Assembly: GCF_017565425.1 (NCBI RefSeq)
Contig: NZ_JAGEMK010000006.1
Location: 1-64,000, forward strand
Length of the DNA stretch: 64,000 bases
Direction of reading: 5' to 3'
Source of the DNA: Actinotalea soli
GTDB lineage: Bacteria; Actinomycetota; Actinomycetes; Actinomycetales; Cellulomonadaceae
How positions within the stretch are numbered: position 1 is the stretch's first letter; every line of letters starts with the position of its first letter. Below, piece by piece: positions 48,094 to 57,879 of this stretch. Below the pieces are notes generated by a model that saw only the letters and a list, made by a program, of their open reading frames with translations, had not been told where the DNA came from and made no database searches. The position numbers and the translations under genes were made by a program.

Positions 48094-48996
48094 TCAGTTC
48101 CACAACGTGAGCTTGTACGGGTTCATCATCATGCGCACGTCGACGACGACGCCCTGCGCCACGTCCAGGGTGACGATGCCGTAGATCCGACCGTCCTCCC
48201 ACAGTGCGAAGCCTGTCCCATCCGGCGTCTCCTGCTCGATGACGGTGGAGCCCGGCCGCTTGTGCAGCGCCCCCACGAGGAACCGAGCAACCTTCTCGCG
48301 GCCGAAAACGGGGTTGCGTGCCGCGGTGACCACGCCACCGCCGTCCGAACGCAGCACCACGTCCGGGTCGAGCATGGAGACCAGCCCGGCGATGTCACCT
48401 GCGCGAGCTGCCGCAGAGAACGCCTTGACCACCTCTTCGTGCTCGGCATGCGTCGAACGCCGGCCGCGGCTGCGTTGCACGCGCCGTCGCGCCGACACTG
48501 CCAGCTGGCGACACGCGGCGGCGGAGCGGCCGACGATCTTGGCGATCTCATCAAACGGCATCGCGAACACGTCGTGCAGCACGAAAGCAACACGCTCGGC
48601 GGGCGTCATCGACTCCAGGACGACGAGGAGAGCACTACTGACCGACTCGTCGAGCGTCACGCGATCAAGAGGATCCCCGGCCCCTTCCGACGGGGTCGCG
48701 AACGCCAGCGGTGGGACGGGCTCCGGCAACCAGGGCCCCACATAGACCTCGCGACGGTGATGCGCGGAAGCGAGGACGTTCAGGCAGATCCTGCTCGCCG
48801 CCTTCGTGAGCCACGCGCGAGGAACCTCGATGGCGGCACGCTCCTGGTCACTCATCCGGTACCAGCGGATGTAGGTCTCCTGCACGGCGTCCTCGGCATC
48901 GGCGACCGTGCCCAGCATGCGAAACGCCAACGACACCAGGTGACGGCGTTCGCCGAGCACGTCGTCCTGGCCGCTGTCCTCCGGGGTGATTGCCAT
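48094..48996 (-). CDS. ECF41-type RNA polymerase sigma factor with SnoaL domain
   Basis: Sigma factor of 300 residues. Region 2 (about 18-85; LVSLAFRMLGTVADAEDAVQETYIRWYR) and region 4 (about 115-170; ALLVVLESMTPAERVAFVLHDVFAMPFDEIAKIVG) are followed by a C-terminal SnoaL-like domain, which in this group acts as a built-in control module. The ECF41 signatures SDGGG and a variant NPYKL (usually NPDKL) are visible. GGAGGG precedes ATG 48996. The epimerase and carboxymuconolactone decarboxylase next door are the standard ECF41 target types, so this is a self-contained regulon. Confidence 0.88.
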   Translation of the reverse strand: MAITPEDSGQDDVLGERRHLVSLAFRMLGTVADAEDAVQETYIRWYRMSDQERAAIEVPRAWLTKAASRICLNVLASAHHRREVYVGPWLPEPVPPLAFATPSEGAGDPLDRVTLDESVSSALLVVLESMTPAERVAFVLHDVFAMPFDEIAKIVGRSAAACRQLAVSARRRVQRSRGRRSTHAEHEEVVKAFSAAARAGDIAGLVSMLDPDVVLRSDGGGVVTAARNPVFGREKVARFLVGALHKRPGSTVIEQETPDGTGFALWEDGRIYGIVTLDVAQGVVVDVRMMMNPYKLTLWN

Positions 48997-49042
48997 GTCG
49001 CACCCTCCGCTCCTCACTAGTAGACCGGGAGGACGAGCCGAA

Positions 49043-49061
49043 TGTGAGGTGACGGCTCACA
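49043..49061. promoter_or_regulatory. TGTGAG inverted repeat in the ECF41/epimerase control region
   Basis: TGTGAG (49043-49048) and CTCACA (49056-49061) enclose GTGACGG. TGACGG-type hexamers recur downstream (TTGACGG twice, ATGACGG). The site lies between the divergent sigma factor and epimerase genes and may contain their promoters. Confidence 0.4.
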
Positions 49062-49234
49062 GTTGACGGCGCTGCGTGGTCTTGACGGGTATGACGGCAA
49101 CACCCGACCGGAGATCGCTCGCATCGCCGCGGGCTCCAGCGAGCAGTACGCCACCTACGGCGGCCCCGCCCGACCGAGGGAGACGACGCAACGGAGGTCC
49201 CGGTGGCCACGGCTCCTGATCTCGAGGAAGGTTC

Positions 49235-50086
49235 ATGAGAGTACTCATCGTCGGTGGGTCCGGTGTCGTCGGGAGCCGCCTCATCCCTCCTCTGGTCGCG
49301 GATGGTCACCAGGTGGTGGCCACCACCCGTCGAGAGCGGAACGCCTCGTTCCTCCGCGAGCTCGGTGCTACGGGTGTCACGGTCGATGTGTTTGACGCGC
49401 CGCACACCGAAGCGGTCGTCCGCGACACCGCCCCTGATCTGATCGTGGATCAGCTGACAGATCTCAGCGACTTCGACTTCGAGGCCAACGCCCGGCTGCG
49501 GCGGGCGGGGACTGCCAACCTCGTCGCCGCGGCGCAGGCCGCCGGCGTTGAGCGCATCATCGCTCAGAGCATCGCCTGGGCGTACGAGCCCGGCGACACC
49601 CCCGCTCTCGAGACCGATCCGCTCATCGAGGACACGGCCGTTGCCGTGATGGAAGCGCACGTGCGCCGCATGCCTCGCAGCACGATCCTCCGATACGGAC
49701 GGTTCTACGGACCGGGCACCTGGTACGCAGACGGTGGCCGCGTCGCCAACGCGGCGACTGCCGGGCTGCTCCTAGCCACGCCGGCCATCGCCTCGTTCGT
49801 ACACATCGACGATGTCATCACCGCGACGGTGGCGGCGATCGACTGGCCCGACGGCGTCTACAACATCGTCGACGGTGATCCGGCCCCGGCAGAGGTATGG
49901 ATGCCGGTCCTCGCGCGCGGTATCGGAGCACCGACTCCCCGGCCTGTGCCGCTGCCCACCCACCAGGCGCTCGGCAGGCCCGTGTCCAACACCAAGGCCC
50001 GTGCGCTCGGCTGGGTGCCGGCGTACCCGTCGTGGCGAGATGGCTTCCCGGGCGCTGACGGTGACCATCGCCGCGACTCCCGGTAG
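49235..50086 (+). CDS. NAD-dependent epimerase/dehydratase family protein
   Basis: Extended SDR-like protein of 283 residues. [16 protein letters not shown] binds NAD(P). The usual YxxxK of sugar epimerases is not obvious: the region after IAQSIAWAYEPG lacks a clear Tyr-x3-Lys, so it may be an atypical reductase. FVHIDDVITA and VYNIVDGDP are typical of the family. It is divergent from the ECF41 sigma factor and belongs to the group of oxidoreductases and epimerases commonly controlled by ECF41. GAGGAAGG precedes the ATG. Confidence 0.8.
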   Translation: MRVLIVGGSGVVGSRLIPPLVADGHQVVATTRRERNASFLRELGATGVTVDVFDAPHTEAVVRDTAPDLIVDQLTDLSDFDFEANARLRRAGTANLVAAAQAAGVERIIAQSIAWAYEPGDTPALETDPLIEDTAVAVMEAHVRRMPRSTILRYGRFYGPGTWYADGGRVANAATAGLLLATPAIASFVHIDDVITATVAAIDWPDGVYNIVDGDPAPAEVWMPVLARGIGAPTPRPVPLPTHQALGRPVSNTKARALGWVPAYPSWRDGFPGADGDHRRDSR

Positions 50087-50113
50087 GTCGCGCAAGGCAG
50101 GACGCCGAACGCC

Positions 50114-50563
50114 TCACGCCCCCACCGGGAAGTGGCTGGAGACTGCGATCCGATTCAACGCGTTCATCGCGATCGCCACCCAGGTGATCGCCGAGATCTG
50201 TCGCTCGGTGAGAACATCCACATCGGCCGCCTCTCGCGCAGGCGCCGGGGCGCGATCACTGATCAGCGTCACCTTCTCGACGATCAGCAGGGCCGCTCGC
50301 TCCTGCGGGGTGAAGTACTGCGACTCCCACCAGGCGGCAAGCACGGCAAGACGCTCAGGCGTCTCCCCGAGCGCTGCGGCGTCCCGTGTGTGGGAGCGGA
50401 GGCAGTAGGCGCACCCGTTGATCTGCGACGCGCGGATCTTCACCAGTTCGACGAGTCGTGGATCGAGCCCCTCCTCGCCGGCCGTCGATGCGGCGTCCTC
50501 GCCGAGGTCCGTCATCGCCTTGTACACCTTGGGATGCACCTTGCCGATGTTCACGTGGGCCAT
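50114..50563 (-). CDS. carboxymuconolactone decarboxylase/AhpD-like protein
   Basis: Protein of 149 residues of the AhpD-like alkylhydroperoxidase superfamily. The redox motif Cys51-x2-Cys54 followed by His58 (NGCAYCLRSH) is intact, which favours peroxidase activity over ring-opening decarboxylase chemistry. It converges on the epimerase gene. As a typical ECF41 target it probably serves an oxidative or metabolite-stress response. A short ribosome-binding sequence (GAGAGGTAG, minus strand) lies before the ATG. Confidence 0.85.
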   Translation of the reverse strand: MAHVNIGKVHPKVYKAMTDLGEDAASTAGEEGLDPRLVELVKIRASQINGCAYCLRSHTRDAAALGETPERLAVLAAWWESQYFTPQERAALLIVEKVTLISDRAPAPAREAADVDVLTERQISAITWVAIAMNALNRIAVSSHFPVGA

Positions 50564-50691: not shown

Positions 50692-50797
50692 ATCTGAGCC
50701 AGCCACCAGGTCCTTGTAGATGAAGGGCGACGGCGACCACCGCACGACCCCGGTGCCCGAGGCCGACCAGCTCGGGGACGAACAGAGAGGCTGTCCC

Positions 50798-51895
50798 ATG
50801 TCCGCACGACCGAAGACGCCCCGCCCCCCCAAGTCCGCGGCGCCCTGCAAGGACGAGGACATCGCCCTCGCCTTCTACCGCCAGATGGTGCTGATCAGGA
50901 GGTTCGAGGAGCGCGCGGCCCGCGGCTACGCGGAGGCGAAGATCGGCGGCTACTGCCACCTGAACCTCGGCGAGGAGGCGACCGTCGTCGGTCTCATGGC
51001 GGCGCTCCAACCCGACGACTACGTGTACGCCAGCTATCGCGACCACGGCTACGCGCTGGCACGCGGCATCTCCCCCGAACGCGTGATGGCGGAGCTCTAC
51101 GGCCGAACCGACGGTGTCTCGAAGGGGTGGGGCGGGTCCATGCACCTGTTCGACGTCGACGCACGCCTCATGGGCGGCTACGGCATCGTCGGCGGGCAGG
51201 TCCCGCTGGCCACGGGCGCTGCGCTCGCGGTCGCCCACCGCGGCGGTGCGGAGGCCGTGCTCTGCCAGATGGGCGACGGCACGACGAACATCGGCGCGTT
51301 CCACGAGTCGCTCAACCTGGCCTCCCTGTGGGACCTGCCCATCGTCTTCGTCGTCAGCAACAACGGACTCGGCATGGGCACGACAGTCGAGGGCTCCTCC
51401 GCCGAACCCGACCTGTTCAAGCGCGCCTCGGCATACCGCATGGCGTCCGAGCGTGTCGACGGAAACGACCCGGTCGCCGTGCACGCCGCCGCCCTCCGTG
51501 CGCTGACGCACGCGCGTTCAGGGAAGCCCTTCCTCCTCGAGACGGTCACCGAGCGTCTGAAGGGCCACTCCGTGGTCGACCCCGCCGGGTACCGCACCCG
51601 CGAGCAGAAGGCACAGCTGCTCGCGGGCGACGCGCTCTCCGCCTACGCCGCGCGTCTCACCGAGCGCGCGATCCTCACCGACGATGCGACCCGAGAGATC
51701 GACGAGGCGGCCATGGCCGCCGTCGACGCCTCCGTGCGATTCGCTGACGCCAGCGCGCACCCGGCGACATCGACGCTCTTCGACTACACCTACGCGACCG
51801 CGGTCCCGAACGACTCCCGTCGACTGCCTGGACAGCCCCTGTTTCCAGCAGCCGCAAGACCTGGCGAGACCATGAGCGAGAAGGCGCCGGCATGA
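50798..51895 (+). CDS. thiamine-dependent 2-oxoacid/acetoin dehydrogenase E1 alpha
   Basis: E1 alpha subunit of 365 residues. The thiamine-diphosphate motif runs from MGDGTTNIGAFHESLNLA to FVVSNN, and YRDHGYALARG and KGWGGSMHLFD are typical of acetoin (AcoA) and pyruvate (PdhA) enzymes. The complex decarboxylates a 2-oxoacid or cleaves acetoin and passes the acyl group to lipoyl-E2. ATG 50798 follows GAGAGG; an earlier in-frame ATG at 50720 would add an unconserved tail. It overlaps E1 beta by 4 bases. Whether the substrate is pyruvate, acetoin or a branched-chain keto acid cannot be settled. Confidence 0.87.
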   Translation: MSARPKTPRPPKSAAPCKDEDIALAFYRQMVLIRRFEERAARGYAEAKIGGYCHLNLGEEATVVGLMAALQPDDYVYASYRDHGYALARGISPERVMAELYGRTDGVSKGWGGSMHLFDVDARLMGGYGIVGGQVPLATGAALAVAHRGGAEAVLCQMGDGTTNIGAFHESLNLASLWDLPIVFVVSNNGLGMGTTVEGSSAEPDLFKRASAYRMASERVDGNDPVAVHAAALRALTHARSGKPFLLETVTERLKGHSVVDPAGYRTREQKAQLLAGDALSAYAARLTERAILTDDATREIDEAAMAAVDASVRFADASAHPATSTLFDYTYATAVPNDSRRLPGQPLFPAAARPGETMSEKAPA

Positions 51896-52884
51896 CCGTC
51901 ATCAGCTATCGCCAAGCCCTGCACGACGCGTTGCGCGAGGAGATGCAGCGAGACGCCGACGTGCTCCTCATCGGCGAGGAGATCGGGCGGTTCGAGGGCT
52001 CGTACAAGATCACCGCCGGGATGCTCGAAGAGTTCGGCCCGCGCCGCGTACGCGACACCCCGATCGCTGAGGAGGGCTTCACCGGCGCGGCGATCGGCGC
52101 CGCCATGGTGGGTCTGCGACCGGTCGTGGAGATCATGACCATCAACTTCTCGCTGCTCGCGATCGATCAGATCGTCAACCACGCCGCCAAGATCTACGGC
52201 ATGTTCGGCGGCCAGGCGCGCGTGCCTCTTGTCATCCGCACCCCCGGAGGTGGTGGCCAGCAGCTCGGTGCGACCCACTCCCAGAACATCGAGCTCTACT
52301 ACGCGTTCGTCCCCGGCATGAAGGTGGTCGCACCGTCGACACCGGCAGACGCGAAAGCGCTGATGCTCGCCGCGATCAGAGACGACGACCCGGTGCTCGT
52401 GCTCGAGAACCTCGCCCTCTACAACACCACCGGCGAGGTCCCGGACGTCGTCGAGCCAGCTGAGATCGGACGTGCCGCAGTCGTCCGCACCGGCAGCGAC
52501 ATCACCGTCATCGGGTACTCGCGGATGGCTGTGATCGCCCGGGAGGCGGCCGAGGTGCTCGCCCGCGAGGGAATCGATGTCGAGGTGATCGACCTGCGGA
52601 GCCTCCGTCCCCTCGACCGCGTCACGATCGTCACATCGGTGAAGAAGACGAGCTGCGCCGTCGTCCTGGAGGACGACTGGCTGACGTACGGGATCGGCGC
52701 CGAAATCGCCGCAACCATCTCCGACGGCGCCTTCGACTGGCTGGATGCTCCCGTGCGACGGGTCGCCATGGCTGAGGTTCCGATGCCCTACGCCAAGTCG
52801 CTCGAGATGGCCGCGCTGCCTTCCCTGGCCGATGCGATTGGCGCCATCCGAGCAACCCTCGACGCCCGCGCGCGTCGAGCCTGA
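51892..52884 (+). CDS. 2-oxoacid/acetoin dehydrogenase E1 beta
   Basis: E1 beta subunit of 330 residues, full length. Typical segments are LLIGEEIGRFEGSYKITAGM, DTPIAEEGFTGAAIGAAMVGLRPVVEIMTINF, PGGGGQQLGATHSQNIE and VVLEDDWLTYGIGAEIAA. The glutamate in AEEGF corresponds to the catalytic Glu that activates thiamine diphosphate. Its start overlaps E1 alpha (ATGA), and E2 follows after 11 bases, so the complex is made from one message. Confidence 0.9.
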   Translation: MTVISYRQALHDALREEMQRDADVLLIGEEIGRFEGSYKITAGMLEEFGPRRVRDTPIAEEGFTGAAIGAAMVGLRPVVEIMTINFSLLAIDQIVNHAAKIYGMFGGQARVPLVIRTPGGGGQQLGATHSQNIELYYAFVPGMKVVAPSTPADAKALMLAAIRDDDPVLVLENLALYNTTGEVPDVVEPAEIGRAAVVRTGSDITVIGYSRMAVIAREAAEVLAREGIDVEVIDLRSLRPLDRVTIVTSVKKTSCAVVLEDDWLTYGIGAEIAATISDGAFDWLDAPVRRVAMAEVPMPYAKSLEMAALPSLADAIGAIRATLDARARRA

Positions 52885-52895
52885 AAGGCACGCTC

Positions 52896-54137
52896 ATGAT
52901 CGACATCCTCATGCCCCGCCTCTCCGACACCATGACGGAAGGCACGATCGCCGCCTGGCACAAGAAGCCCGGCGACCCCGTGAAGGCCGGCGAGATCCTC
53001 GTCGAGGTCGAGACCGACAAGGCACTCATGGAGCAGGAGGCCTACGACGCCGGGACCCTCGTCGAGATCCTGGTCGCTGAGGGCGAGCAGGTTGAGATCG
53101 GCACCCCGATCGCCCGGCTGGACGACGGGATCGATCACGCTGTCGGCACCGAGGGTCCGACACCGCCGGCGGCAGCCGAGGCCGCTCGAGCCCCGGCCCG
53201 CAACGCTCCGGATACGACGCCCCGCCGGGTCTTCACCACCCCGCTCGTCCGGCGGATGGCCCGAGAGAAGCAGATCGACCTCTCGACCGTCACAGGCACC
53301 GGGCCGGGTGGCCGCATCGTCCGCGCGGACCTGGCAGCGGCCATCGTCTCCCCTGCCAACGCACCAGAAGAGGACGCACCGGTTCACCTTCACGCACCGG
53401 CCGTCGCGCCGACCCCTCCCACGGAGGGTGCAGAGGATGACCGTGCGCCGCGACGCATCCCGTTCGACAGCATCCGCCACGCCGTGGCCTCACGCCTGAC
53501 CGAGACCGCGACCATCCCGACGTTCACGGTCACCGTCTCTGCAGACGTCGGCGCCCTGGTCGACCTACGACAGCACATCAACACGGCGAATGCGGACACC
53601 GGGGTCAAGGTCAGCATGAACGACCTCGTCGTCCGGGCCGCGGCCACAGCGCTGCGCGCCCACCCCGGCGTCAACGCCTCGTACGAGCCGGCAGGACGAG
53701 GGGCGACGCTGCTCCACGACCGGGTGCACATCGGGATAGCGGTCGCCTCGCCCGCCGGACTCGTCGTACCGGTGATCCGCGATGCGGATCGAGCATCGGT
53801 GACGACCATCGCCGACGCCGCGCGCGACCTGGTCACCCGCGCCACCGAACGTCGACTCGACGCCCGCGACATGAGCGGTGGCACGTTCACGGTCAGCAAC
53901 CTCGGAATGTTCGGTGTCGACCACTTCACCGCCATCATCAACCCCCCTCAGGGCGCGATCCTCGCCGTCGGCGGTGTCCGCGAGGAACTTGCGCTCATCG
54001 ACGGCGAGCCGACCTCCCGCCGGATGATGAGCGTCACGCTCACCTCTGACCATCGCATCATCGACGGAGCAGGCGCCGCACGGTACCTCGCCACGCTGGT
54101 GCAGCTGCTCGAGAACCCCCTTCGCGTCCTCAGCTGA
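52896..54137 (+). CDS. dihydrolipoamide acyltransferase (E2)
   Basis: E2 component of 413 residues with the normal three domains. The lipoyl domain (about 1-78) carries the modified Lys42 in ETDKAL. A Pro/Ala linker leads to the peripheral subunit-binding domain (about 110-145; TPLVRRMAREKQIDLSTVTGTGPGGRI). The catalytic core (about 185-413) has His386 and Asp390 in DHRIIDG. It accepts the acyl group from E1 and transfers it to CoA. The binding domain for E3 is intact, yet no dihydrolipoamide dehydrogenase gene is in the window, so a chromosomal E3 must serve it. Confidence 0.92.
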   Translation: MIDILMPRLSDTMTEGTIAAWHKKPGDPVKAGEILVEVETDKALMEQEAYDAGTLVEILVAEGEQVEIGTPIARLDDGIDHAVGTEGPTPPAAAEAARAPARNAPDTTPRRVFTTPLVRRMAREKQIDLSTVTGTGPGGRIVRADLAAAIVSPANAPEEDAPVHLHAPAVAPTPPTEGAEDDRAPRRIPFDSIRHAVASRLTETATIPTFTVTVSADVGALVDLRQHINTANADTGVKVSMNDLVVRAAATALRAHPGVNASYEPAGRGATLLHDRVHIGIAVASPAGLVVPVIRDADRASVTTIADAARDLVTRATERRLDARDMSGGTFTVSNLGMFGVDHFTAIINPPQGAILAVGGVREELALIDGEPTSRRMMSVTLTSDHRIIDGAGAARYLATLVQLLENPLRVLS

Positions 54138-54204
54138 CGACAGCGAAGAGCTTCGACACTCCCCTACCCCCGATCGTTCCCGCGTGTCACGAAAGGACAT
54201 CTCC

Positions 54205-54801
54205 ATGACCACCTACGACGTCGGCGTCATCGTCGGCAGCATCTCCTCGACCTCCATCAACCGGCGCCTTGCGCGGGCACTGACCGCGCTCGCGCCTCAG
54301 GCCGGGCTCCGCCTCACCGACATCCCGATCGGCAACCTGCCGATGTACTCCGCAGATCACGACTCCGCGATTCCCTCCGAAGCCGCGGAGTTCAAGCGAG
54401 CGATAGAAGCATCCGACGCGATCATCGTCGTCACGCCTGAGTACAACCGCTCGGTCCCGGGCGTTCTCAAGAACGCCCTCGACACCGCCAGCCGCCCGTG
54501 GGGCGACAACAGCTTCGCCGGGAAGCCCACCGCCGTGATCGGTGTGTCGGTCGGAGTCATCGGCACCGCGGCCGCACAGCAGCATCTCCGCAACATCCTG
54601 GGCTTCCTGGCCTCCCCCACGCTCACGCAGCCCGAGGCCTACCTTCAGATCCGCGAGGGACTCATCACAGACGACGGCATCGTCACCGACGAGGGGACCG
54701 CGGACTTCCTGATGAGCTGGCTCATGGCCGCGCACGAGCACTTCGACAGGGCTCGACCAGCCGTCGAGGCCATCCCGTCCGTCACGGGGTCAGCTGCGTG
54801 A
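54205..54801 (+). CDS. NADPH-dependent FMN reductase
   Basis: Flavodoxin-fold protein of 198 residues. VGSISSTSINRRLA contacts the FMN phosphate, and VTPEYNRSVPGVLKNALDTAS is the signature of NAD(P)H:quinone/FMN reductases. AAAGGA precedes ATG 54205. It lies 67 bases after E2 and in front of the NADH dehydrogenase, so it may pass NAD(P)H electrons to a quinone or flavin within the same redox module; this is inferred. Confidence 0.85.
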   Translation: MTTYDVGVIVGSISSTSINRRLARALTALAPQAGLRLTDIPIGNLPMYSADHDSAIPSEAAEFKRAIEASDAIIVVTPEYNRSVPGVLKNALDTASRPWGDNSFAGKPTAVIGVSVGVIGTAAAQQHLRNILGFLASPTLTQPEAYLQIREGLITDDGIVTDEGTADFLMSWLMAAHEHFDRARPAVEAIPSVTGSAA

Positions 54802-54884: not shown

Positions 54885-56279
54885 ATGCGGATACTCATCA
54901 TCGGCGGCGGGTACACAGGGTTCTACACGGCATGGCGGCTAGAGAAGCGGCTGCATCCGCGTGAGGCGGAGGTCACTGTCGTCGACCCTCGCGGTTACAT
55001 GACCTACCAACCGTTCCTTCCGGAGGTCATGGCGGGGTCGGTCGAGGCACGTCACGCGATCGTCTCCCTGCGCAGCCACCTGCGGCGCACCCGCATCATC
55101 GCCGGACACGCGACCTCGATCGACCACGCCCACCGGACAGTCACGGTCCACACGGGCGACACGGCACCTCAGGCCATCGAGTACGACATCCTCGTCGTCA
55201 CTGCGGGCGCGGTGACACGCACGTTGCCGATCCCAGGGCTCGCCGAGCAAGCCATCGGGCTCAAGCAGGTCGAGGAGGCCGTCTGGATCCGCGACCGGCT
55301 GCTGACCGCGTTCGATGAGGCTGCTGCGCTCCCCTCGGGTCCTGCACGGACCCGTGCGCTGACCGTCACCGTCGTCGGTGGGGGCTTCACCGGAGTCGAG
55401 GCGTTCGGGGAGCTGCTCTCGCTGGCCACCTCGCTCCTCCGTTCGTATCCCGAGATTGCCTTCTCGGACCTTTCGTTCCACCTGATCGAGGCCCAAGCAC
55501 GGATCCTGCCCGAGGTGACCGACGGTCCCGGGCGCTGGGTCGTGCGCCACCTGGAGCAACGCGGCGCGCACATCCACACCGAGTCACAGGTCACCTCCGT
55601 ACGAGGCGGGCACATCGAGCTGGCTGCCGGGGAGACTTTTGACACCAACCTCCTGATCTGGGCCGTCGGCAACGGGAGCAACCCCGTGATCGCCCGGCAC
55701 ACCGACCTGCCCGTCGACGACCGTGGGCTGCTGCGCGTTCGCGCGGACCTACGTGTCGGGACCGACGCGGCACTCGTGCCGGACGCGTGGGGTGCCGGGG
55801 ACAATGCCGCCGTCCCCGACCTCAGCTCCGCCGCTCCCGGCGCCCTGACCGTACCGAACGCCCAGCACGCCGTCCGGCAGGGCAAGCATCTGGCTGACAA
55901 CCTCGTCGCGCACCTGCGCGGCAAGGCGGTGCGCCCCTACAGCCACCGCAGCCTCGGCACCGTCGCGACGCTCGGCATGCACGAAGGCGTGTTCCAGTAC
56001 CGTCGGTTGATCATCAAGGGCCTGGTGGCATGGTTGATGCACCGCGGCTACCACGTCCTGGCCATCCCCACCTGGGAGCGCAAGCTGCGCGTGCTCCTCG
56101 TCTGGCTGAGCGCCGCTCTCTTCGGACGGGACATCGTCGCCCTACGCGGCGTGGAGGAACCTCGTGCAGCCTTCCTGGCGGCAGGCGACCCCGACGTGCT
56201 CCGGTCGCGGCACAAGCACATCGGGGCCGAGACGGATGCCGGTGAGCATGAGCTGAGCGGGGCCGACCGTGCCCGTTGA
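54885..56279 (+). CDS. type II NADH dehydrogenase (NDH-2)
   Basis: FAD-dependent NADH:quinone oxidoreductase of 464 residues without proton pumping. LIIGGGYTGFYTAWRLEK binds FAD, VTVVGGGFTGVEAFGEL binds NADH, and DAWGAGDNAAVPD is the second FAD contact. The C-terminal stretch IIKGLVAWLMHRGYHVLAIP and LRVLLVWLSAALFGRD would anchor it to the membrane face. GGAGG precedes ATG 54885. It overlaps the cytochrome b gene by 11 bases. It could reoxidise the NADH made by the E1-E2 complex and feed quinone next to that cytochrome. Confidence 0.9.
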   Translation: MRILIIGGGYTGFYTAWRLEKRLHPREAEVTVVDPRGYMTYQPFLPEVMAGSVEARHAIVSLRSHLRRTRIIAGHATSIDHAHRTVTVHTGDTAPQAIEYDILVVTAGAVTRTLPIPGLAEQAIGLKQVEEAVWIRDRLLTAFDEAAALPSGPARTRALTVTVVGGGFTGVEAFGELLSLATSLLRSYPEIAFSDLSFHLIEAQARILPEVTDGPGRWVVRHLEQRGAHIHTESQVTSVRGGHIELAAGETFDTNLLIWAVGNGSNPVIARHTDLPVDDRGLLRVRADLRVGTDAALVPDAWGAGDNAAVPDLSSAAPGALTVPNAQHAVRQGKHLADNLVAHLRGKAVRPYSHRSLGTVATLGMHEGVFQYRRLIIKGLVAWLMHRGYHVLAIPTWERKLRVLLVWLSAALFGRDIVALRGVEEPRAAFLAAGDPDVLRSRHKHIGAETDAGEHELSGADRAR

Positions 56280-57879
56280 CCGCCGCCCCCGCGTGACCGC
56301 ACGCCACCGCGCGAAGGCCTTCGTCGTGCAGGCCGAGGGGAGACTCAGCCGGACGCTCGGGCAGCGGCGTGTACACCTGCACTGGGCGAACCTGTTCGGC
56401 GTCATGGCGGTCGCGTCCATGCTGGTCCTTGCGTTCACCGGCATCCTGCTGGCATTCACCTACACCCCGTCCAGCGAGATGGTCACCTACGACGGCCCGT
56501 ATGCGCCCCTTGTCGGGGCCGAGGTCAGCGCGGCCTTCGACTCCACGATGGACATTTCTTTCGCCCAGATCGGCGGGATGCTCATCCGCCAGACCCACCA
56601 CTGGGCAGCGCTTCTCATGCCAGCCGCGATGGTCCTGCAGATCCTGGCCCTCTTCTTCACCGGTGGGTTCCGCCGGCCCCGGCGTGCGGGCTGGGTGCTG
56701 CTGACGCTGGCATTCCTCACCGTCCTTCTGGCCGGCTGGAGCGGATACGCCCTGCCCGACGACATGCTGTCGGGCACCGGGCTGCGCATCGTCGAAGGTG
56801 TCGTGCTCGGGATCCCCGTGATCGGGACCCGGCTCGTGTCCTGGATGTTCGGCGGTCGGTTCCCCGGCGAGATCGTGGAGCACCTCTACCCGGTCCACGT
56901 CCTGATCGCCCCGACCCTGGTCGTCCTGCTGCTCCTGACCCGAGGCTGGCTCGCATACCGGCACGGGTCGCCGGGGCCCGCTGGCACGGGAACACCTGTC
57001 CAGGCGTCGCTCGGACTACGGCTGTGGCCCGACGCCGCAATGCGCGCAGTCGGGCTGACTGCGATCACCAGCAGCGTGCTGGTACTGCTCGGCGCCACCT
57101 CCACGATCAATCCCATCTGGACCTACGGGCCCACCTCCGCCGGGAACGTCGGCGCGGGCAGCCAACCCGACTGGTACATGGGGTTCCTCGACGGCGCTTT
57201 GCGTCTCGTCCCAGCGGGATGGGAGACCGAATGGTTCGGCTGGACATGGACCTTCGCCATCCTCGCCCCGCTCGCCGTCGTCGGCGTCTATTTCGTTCTG
57301 GTCATCGCCTACCCGTTCGTCGAGTCATGGGTCACGAACGACAGCGCCGAGCACCACGTGCTTGACCGGCCGAGGAACGTCCCTGTCCGCACCGGCATCG
57401 GCGTCGCAGGCGCGCTCTTCTACGGAATCCTGTGGGCCGCGGCGGGCTCCGATGTCCTTGCGACGACCTTCAGCATCAGCTTCGAGGCGATCATCACGAC
57501 GCTGCAGGTGGCGCTGGTCGTCGGCCCACCCCTCGCGTTCGGCATCACGCGCCGGATCGGCATCGGGCTCCAGCGCCGAGACCGCAAGGTCCTTCTGCAC
57601 GGGCACGAGACCGGCCGGATCGTGCGGACGCCGAACGGTGGTTACGTCGAGACCCATCAGCCGATCACCGCTGGCGAGCGCGTCCGCCTGGCGGTGACCC
57701 CGGCCCCCATCCCGCCAGCCCGACCAGACCAGGACGGCCGCTTGACCCACAGAGAGCGGCTCCGTGGGGTCCTTGCGAGGCAGTTCGAGGATGGGCACGT
57801 CGCGATCGCACGACCCGATGCAGAACAGGCACCAACCCGAGGCCAGCTATCCGCGCGAGACCATCCACAACCCAGATGA
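56269..57879 (+). CDS. divergent QcrB-like cytochrome b lacking heme bH ligands
   Basis: Membrane protein of 536 residues, a paralogue of cytochrome b from the actinobacterial bc complex, with about nine transmembrane helices. The quinol-site motif PDWY is kept. Helix B has the first heme His (QTHHWAALL), but the second, 14 residues on, is Gln (MVLQILALF). Helix D keeps the first His (YPVHVLIAP), but positions 14 and 15 on are Thr and Arg. So heme bL could bind while heme bH could not. No Rieske or cytochrome c gene is adjacent. The GTG start overlaps NDH-2, pointing to a joint function. Confidence 0.83.
   Translation: MPVDRRPRVTARHRAKAFVVQAEGRLSRTLGQRRVHLHWANLFGVMAVASMLVLAFTGILLAFTYTPSSEMVTYDGPYAPLVGAEVSAAFDSTMDISFAQIGGMLIRQTHHWAALLMPAAMVLQILALFFTGGFRRPRRAGWVLLTLAFLTVLLAGWSGYALPDDMLSGTGLRIVEGVVLGIPVIGTRLVSWMFGGRFPGEIVEHLYPVHVLIAPTLVVLLLLTRGWLAYRHGSPGPAGTGTPVQASLGLRLWPDAAMRAVGLTAITSSVLVLLGATSTINPIWTYGPTSAGNVGAGSQPDWYMGFLDGALRLVPAGWETEWFGWTWTFAILAPLAVVGVYFVLVIAYPFVESWVTNDSAEHHVLDRPRNVPVRTGIGVAGALFYGILWAAAGSDVLATTFSISFEAIITTLQVALVVGPPLAFGITRRIGIGLQRRDRKVLLHGHETGRIVRTPNGGYVETHQPITAGERVRLAVTPAPIPPARPDQDGRLTHRERLRGVLARQFEDGHVAIARPDAEQAPTRGQLSARDHPQPR

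Follow-up and report, generated by a model that had tools for sequence, protein, structure and literature searches.

A QcrB-type cytochrome b gene without heme bH ligands, overlapping an NDH-2 gene, in Actinotalea soli

The Q cycle depends on two membrane-spanning hemes. The closest described systems to the cytochrome b considered here are the QcrB subunits of the bcc-aa3 chain (Corynebacterium glutamicum, 7q21_B; Mycobacterium smegmatis, 7rh5_E), and residue numbers such as Glu38, Gly138, Tyr153, Lys253 and Pro294 are those of C. glutamicum QcrB. Roles of Qi- and Qo-site residues follow the published C. glutamicum structure (PMC8795186), according to which Glu38 of the Qi site bonds the bound menaquinone, Lys253 belongs to the proton entry at the Qi side, a menaquinone is present at the Qc site 12.6 Å from heme bL, and QcrA is held in the supercomplex through a large interface. 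For the bc1 complex, PMC4330944 describes laboratory bH knock-outs in which bL is loaded without bH and electrons are exchanged from bL to bL; the two bL hemes lie 14 Å apart edge to edge, the exchange was shown with variants carrying the Rhodobacter substitution H212N, and an engineered bH knock-out was left with residual turnover only. Cytochrome b6 of the b6f complex keeps both bis-His hemes and in addition carries heme ci (general background; PMC9162462), neither of which was found in the protein described below.

The window analysed was a stretch of 64,000 nucleotides from A. soli (contig NZ_JAGEMK010000006.1, positions 1 to 64,000). A QcrB-type cytochrome b gene without heme bH ligands, referred to below as the stripped form, was identified at 56269-57879 (+ strand) from its reading frame, Pfam and phmmer matches, and alignment. 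The frame opens with GTG and translates into 536 aa, with matches to the Pfam families Cytochrom_B_N_2 (2.3e-37) and Cytochrome_B (8.9e-18). The best solved match by phmmer was C. glutamicum QcrB (7q21_B, E 1.3e-108), with the same fold family as 7q21_B and 7rh5_E over residues 36-470, and the next-best solved relatives were of the b6f type (7r0w_I, E 1e-21); the 15-residue spacing of helix D in cytochrome b6 is shared with the parent family of the stripped form. The alignment to 7q21_B was free of gaps in helices B, C and D, and had one single-residue gap in the loop that precedes helix D; homology to actinobacterial QcrB extended across the whole cytochrome b core. Judged by these alignments, the product is a paralogue of actinobacterial QcrB. 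Against the NCBIfam model NF050120, with a cut-off of 500 bits, the window protein scored 498.5 bits, four stripped relatives scored 505.0, 501.1, 498.9 and 481.3, and the ordinary A. soli QcrB scored 771.1; the cut-off thus splits the stripped group, so that public names will be inconsistent. An AlphaFold model of the protein, built from a nine-row alignment, had a mean pLDDT of 36.5 and was set aside.

Helix B of the window protein reads HHWAALLMPAAMVLQ, with His110 (56596-56598, +) followed 14 residues later by Gln124 (56638-56640, +), and helix D reads HVLIAPTLVVLLLLTR, with His210 (56896-56898, +), Thr224 at +14 and Arg225 (56941-56943, +) at +15. At the equivalent places the genome's ordinary QcrB has HHWAALLFMAAIVTH in helix B and HILLIPGLILALIGLH in helix D. 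Alignment to QcrB and to the group rows placed His110 and His210 at the kept heme bL ligands, and Gln124 and Arg225 at the positions of the two heme bH His residues. The earlier note on this DNA had read both helices in the same way, and its assignments (His and Gln in helix B; His, Thr and Arg in helix D) were reproduced in the alignment to 7q21_B.

Relatives were collected by a scan of named genomes, with eight hits sharing 67-78% identity (from Promicromonospora, Pseudactinotalea, Myceligenerans, Antribacter and Isoptericola), and by profile searches. In the same family these searches detected 22 copies, distributed over 21 of 200 genomes, and they added eight carrier genomes among 396 of the order and one among 394 of the class. 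No further group member was present among the matches listed for 296 genomes of the phylum, and none above 60% identity in the plasmid search. Within the genus, one of 19 genomes carries the stripped form and the other 18 have ordinary QcrB only (43-48% identity). In Promicromonospora the stripped form seems to be almost universal. The total came to 31 stripped copies in 30 genomes, with Gln and Arg at both bH places in all 31. Seven of the order-level carriers are, by sequence, probably Microbacteriaceae, as the ordinary QcrB of their family shares about 70-81% identity with the one in a Microbacterium record. For counting, 30 distinct rows were used, the partial copy L033/L053 (Gln and Arg present) and near-identical duplicates being left out; these rows are 48-91% identical to one another and 34-53% identical to ordinary QcrB. 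The stripped group was chosen by score and motif and then tested by a tree of 76 rows, in which 29 stripped rows formed one group (branch support 100/100; the 30th row, L155, was outside the tree, L054 and others carried a long-branch warning, and the midpoint root served for drawing only). Nine close pairs of the stripped cytochrome b gave dN/dS values of 0.21-0.33, which indicates that the protein is kept by selection; the values are somewhat higher than those of ordinary QcrB (median 0.165, 35 pairs), so the constraint is present but weaker. No relevant paper on a cytochrome b without bH was found in the literature search, the scope of which was papers outside subscription.

The His/Gln/His/Arg pattern was found in 30/30 distinct stripped relatives (Gln124 and Arg225 in every row) and four His residues in 74/74 ordinary QcrB rows, a count that is partly by construction, the ordinary set being the rows left after removal of the stripped group and of seven rows of a second lineage, without the fragments L021 and L023 and the distant L024 and L025. 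Within the membrane part, the stripped group conserves no His residues other than 110, 111 and 210, and a look through the group rows for newly conserved His, Met or Lys there, as replacement heme ligands, found none. Shifted bH ligands were ruled out, since membrane His residues other than these three are not conserved in the group, and a sequencing error at the Gln codon was ruled out by the Gln common to 30/30 relatives. Between its two ligand positions, helix B carries a group-specific proline, Pro118 (56620-56622, +). The absence of both heme bH ligands, which the earlier note had claimed from one sequence, is a fixed feature of the group; heme bH is predicted to be absent from the stripped cytochrome b and heme bL to be present.

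The changes extend beyond the ligands to the rest of the inner half. Val45 (56401-56403, +) replaces the Qi-site Glu38 (Val in 30/30, against Glu in 74/74 ordinary rows), the Lys253 equivalent is Arg in 29/30 and Leu in 1/30, and Leu145 (56701-56703, +) replaces Gly138 of helix C on the bH side (Leu in 30/30, against Gly in 74/74), so that neither residue of the QcrB Qi site, Glu38 or Lys253, was found in the group. Compared with QcrB of the bcc-aa3 complexes, the stripped form thus has the bH ligands, Glu38, Lys253 and the helix-C Gly changed, and has in common with it the bL ligands, the Qo motif, the Qo proton-exit residues and the C-terminal domain. The Qo site, at which quinol is oxidised, retains PDWY, as the earlier note had stated; the motif occupies residues 300-303 (57166-57177, +) and is kept in the group alignment. 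The equivalents of Tyr153, Pro294, Asp295, Tyr297 and Arg306 are unchanged in 30/30 rows. Of the proton-exit positions, Asp302 is Asp in 30/30 and Asp387 is retained in 29 rows, the remaining row having a gap. Positions conserved in QcrB (at least 90% in the 74 ordinary rows) were retained in the stripped group at 58/81 places in the outer half and at 16/46 in the inner half (p 7.4e-5, with boundaries placed by ligand positions and not by coordinates); the contrast held without the two ligand positions (p 2.4e-4) and with boundary shifts of up to four residues (p 4e-3 to 5e-6). As far as conservation tells, the inner (cytoplasmic) bH/Qi half is lost and the outer bL/Qo half is intact. Because loss of the bH ligands is fixed in the whole group and accompanied by loss of Qi-site residues, a Q cycle inside the subunit is very unlikely, as had been suggested at the outset. 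The stripped cytochrome b is a QcrB descendant, yet should not be called QcrB in function, since two defining features of a Q-cycle cytochrome b, bis-His ligation of two hemes and the Qi site, are both wanting.

A second QcrB-like lineage of seven rows (L073, L074, L075, L124, L092, L126 and L127) grouped apart from the stripped group and fell on the same side of the tree as ordinary QcrB. In these rows Ile, Val or Tyr replaces the bH His of helix D (7/7), Gln replaces that of helix B in 3/7, the Qi Glu has become His (four) or Gln (three), and the Qo Pro-Asp is Ala-Leu (7/7); in four rows helix A has gained a His where Glu38 would stand. No NDH-2 gene was adjacent to the second-lineage genes in the seven stretches. 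On these residues, the lineage is read as a cytochrome b stripped in another way and more deeply, with the Qo motif lost too.

Directly upstream in the window, an NDH-2-type flavoprotein (NADH:quinone oxidoreductase) gene was identified at 54885-56279 (+) by an FAD/NAD fold (Pfam Pyr_redox_2, E 2.4e-37) and a match to a solved NDH-2 over 16-426 (phmmer, 9mqy_A, E 1e-30). The frame is open from GTG 54831; the start is likely to be ATG 54885, which lies behind a purine-rich stretch. The translation contains an AQxA-RQ-type segment, which we take to be an NDH-2 motif. The protein is distinct from the other NDH-2 encoded elsewhere in the genome (48% identical). Its stop codon overlaps the start of the cytochrome b gene by 11 bases (56269-56279, +; GTG N5 TGA), and the same 11-base overlap, [AG]TG N5 TGA, was identical in all 19 NDH-2/cytochrome b pairs read, which points to coupled translation. 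One genome, G024, carries two copies of the pair (L094 and L107). NDH-2 lies directly upstream of the stripped cytochrome b in 21/30 loci and is not adjacent in 9/30, the G102 copy, at a contig end, being outside the count. The overlap described in the earlier note was thus recovered, and its proposal that the cytochrome b works with NDH-2 stands in part: adjacency and the constant overlap speak for it, and the nine loci without NDH-2 show that the partner is frequent and not obligatory. NDH-2 acts at the cytoplasmic face and heme bL lies near the outer face, which makes direct electron transfer from NDH-2 to the cytochrome b improbable, and any connection between the two would have to run through quinol.

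The remaining neighbours were scanned as well. Unlike QcrB of the bcc-aa3 complexes, the stripped form is encoded outside the qcrCAB cluster, with NDH-2 upstream in most loci. Among nine neighbouring proteins between 49235 and 59027 no Rieske protein or cytochrome c was found, in agreement with what had been noted from the window alone, and no QcrA or QcrC match was found beside the stripped cytochrome b in any locus stretch searched, so that the adjacency to qcrC and qcrA seen for actinobacterial qcrB is missing. No acceptor gene recurred beside it; of the neighbours common to four or more loci, NDH-2 was the sole frequent one. Genes for E1 alpha, E1 beta and E2 of a pyruvate-dehydrogenase-like complex lie at 50720-54137 (+), followed by an FMN reductase gene (54184-54801), with no E3 gene among the scanned neighbours; the pyruvate-dehydrogenase-like genes were ruled out as partners, as they were not found beside relatives. 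The region 48097-50563 holds an ECF-type sigma gene, which also matches SnoaL weakly, together with one epimerase-like and one AhpD-like gene. A related ECF-type sigma gene was present within the fetched stretches of 11 loci, and a gene clustering with a member of Pfam NPP1 (assignment from the L112 member) near the pair in ten (L099, L100, L101, L103, L104, L106, L107, L109, L111 and L112); both were set aside, their distance varying or their occurrence being confined to one genus.

A complete qcrCAB set, which the earlier note had proposed to look for, was found elsewhere in the genome on contig C11, where the ordinary QcrB stands in a ctaE-qcrC-qcrA-qcrB run (names by homology and reading). 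QcrA gave one full-length match and QcrC one match per genome in 10 genomes, 8 of them carriers; the A. soli genome has five Rieske-domain places, four besides QcrA.

The reading that we tentatively favour, at somewhat less than even chances, is that the stripped cytochrome b is a menaquinol oxidation subunit with heme bL only and without a Qi site, which makes no Q cycle, borrows the QcrA and QcrC of the cell and serves a bypass matched to NDH-2. NDH-2 encoded upstream would make menaquinol from NADH, and the menaquinol would be oxidised at the Qo site of the stripped cytochrome b. The first electron would pass to a Rieske cluster, most likely that of the single QcrA of the cell, and from there through QcrC to the oxidase. 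The second would pass to bL and then be handed on near the outer face, since it cannot reach the inner side where heme bH is absent; its exits might be the bL of the other protomer, a menaquinone at the Qc site or a return to the Rieske side, and it too would finally reach the Rieske side. As no electron would cross from bL to bH, menaquinol oxidation would not be held back by the membrane potential, and the outcome would be a non-electrogenic bypass of complex III paired with the non-electrogenic NDH-2. The assembly with QcrA and QcrC, what becomes of the second electron, and the physiological role in such a bypass are inferred.

By analogy, the stripped cytochrome b would most likely work like a bH knock-out and be a natural counterpart of the laboratory ones. 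As in H212N of Rhodobacter (PMC4330944), bL and Qo are kept and the bH/Qi path is removed; H212N was made in the laboratory as one exchange in one helix, with two-heme neighbours, whereas in the stripped form both ligands, the pocket and the Qi site are changed and the protein is kept by selection. The bypass reading is weakened by the nine loci without NDH-2 and by the poor turnover reported for bH knock-outs (PMC4330944). Borrowing of QcrA is not obviously possible, because no Rieske or cytochrome c gene is adjacent and QcrA is tightly packed in the C. glutamicum complex (PMC8795186); another Rieske partner is conceivable, given the four further Rieske-domain places in the genome. The wider claim, that NDH-2 and a Qi-less, bL-only cytochrome b together form a natural non-electrogenic complex III, an NADH-to-Rieske module that would be an uncoupled branch of the bcc-aa3 chain, is possible and rather doubtful.

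Rather unlikely is a mixed dimer with ordinary QcrB, having two Qo sites, two bL hemes, one bH and one Qi site, in which electrons would pass from bL to bL and the Q cycle would be tuned, not replaced. Such a dimer is consistent with the conserved outer half, the site of bL and Qo, with the single QcrA/QcrC set in the eight carriers checked and with cross-inactivated dimers that were functional in Rhodobacter (PMC4330944), but it leaves the linked NDH-2 unexplained, and at 34-53% identity to ordinary QcrB the dimer face may not match.

The NDH-2 linkage, with adjacency in 21/30 loci and a constant overlap in 19 pairs, and the concentration of changes at the cytoplasmic side would be accounted for if the inner face anchored NDH-2 and channelled menaquinone, with bL and Qo used for quinol release or regulation and not for respiration through QcrA. 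We regard this as unlikely: the residues for proton exit along the Rieske-facing Qo path (Asp302, Arg306 and Asp387) are conserved, which suggests real quinol oxidation, and NDH-2 is not adjacent in 9/30 loci. Conservation of the Rieske-side Qo residues likewise argues against a Rieske-free quinol oxidase passing electrons from bL to an outer acceptor, or a redox sensor of the quinone pool, as does the lack of a recurrent acceptor gene among the neighbours; with bL and Qo kept and no dedicated Rieske or cytochrome c gene adjacent, such a function is conceivable and quite unlikely.

That the protein holds two hemes after all, the second on unusual ligands or on one heme-facing residue, would be compatible with the sequence if Gln, Arg, Tyr or Met were the ligands, but it is highly improbable given that no His, Met or Lys has become newly conserved in the membrane part, that the helix-C Gly beside the heme has become Leu and that helix B has gained Pro118. 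A decaying gene copy or a sequencing error is hardly credible: the gene is a spare copy in a genome with a complete qcrCAB and two of the 22 family-search matches were listed with one internal stop, but both are open across the aligned region in the named records L029 and L030, the substitutions are identical in 30/30 relatives, and dN/dS is 0.21-0.33.

With the bL-only menaquinol oxidation subunit as the favoured reading, a clade that lacks bH and Qi and has a Qo site under selection shows that the outer half of cytochrome b can be useful alone. It offers a natural system for the study of Qo without bH, in which bifurcation, superoxide leak, or passage of both electrons into the Rieske chain without control by the membrane potential may be addressed. 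It is also a warning that genes named as the cytochrome b subunit of a bc complex need not make a Q cycle.
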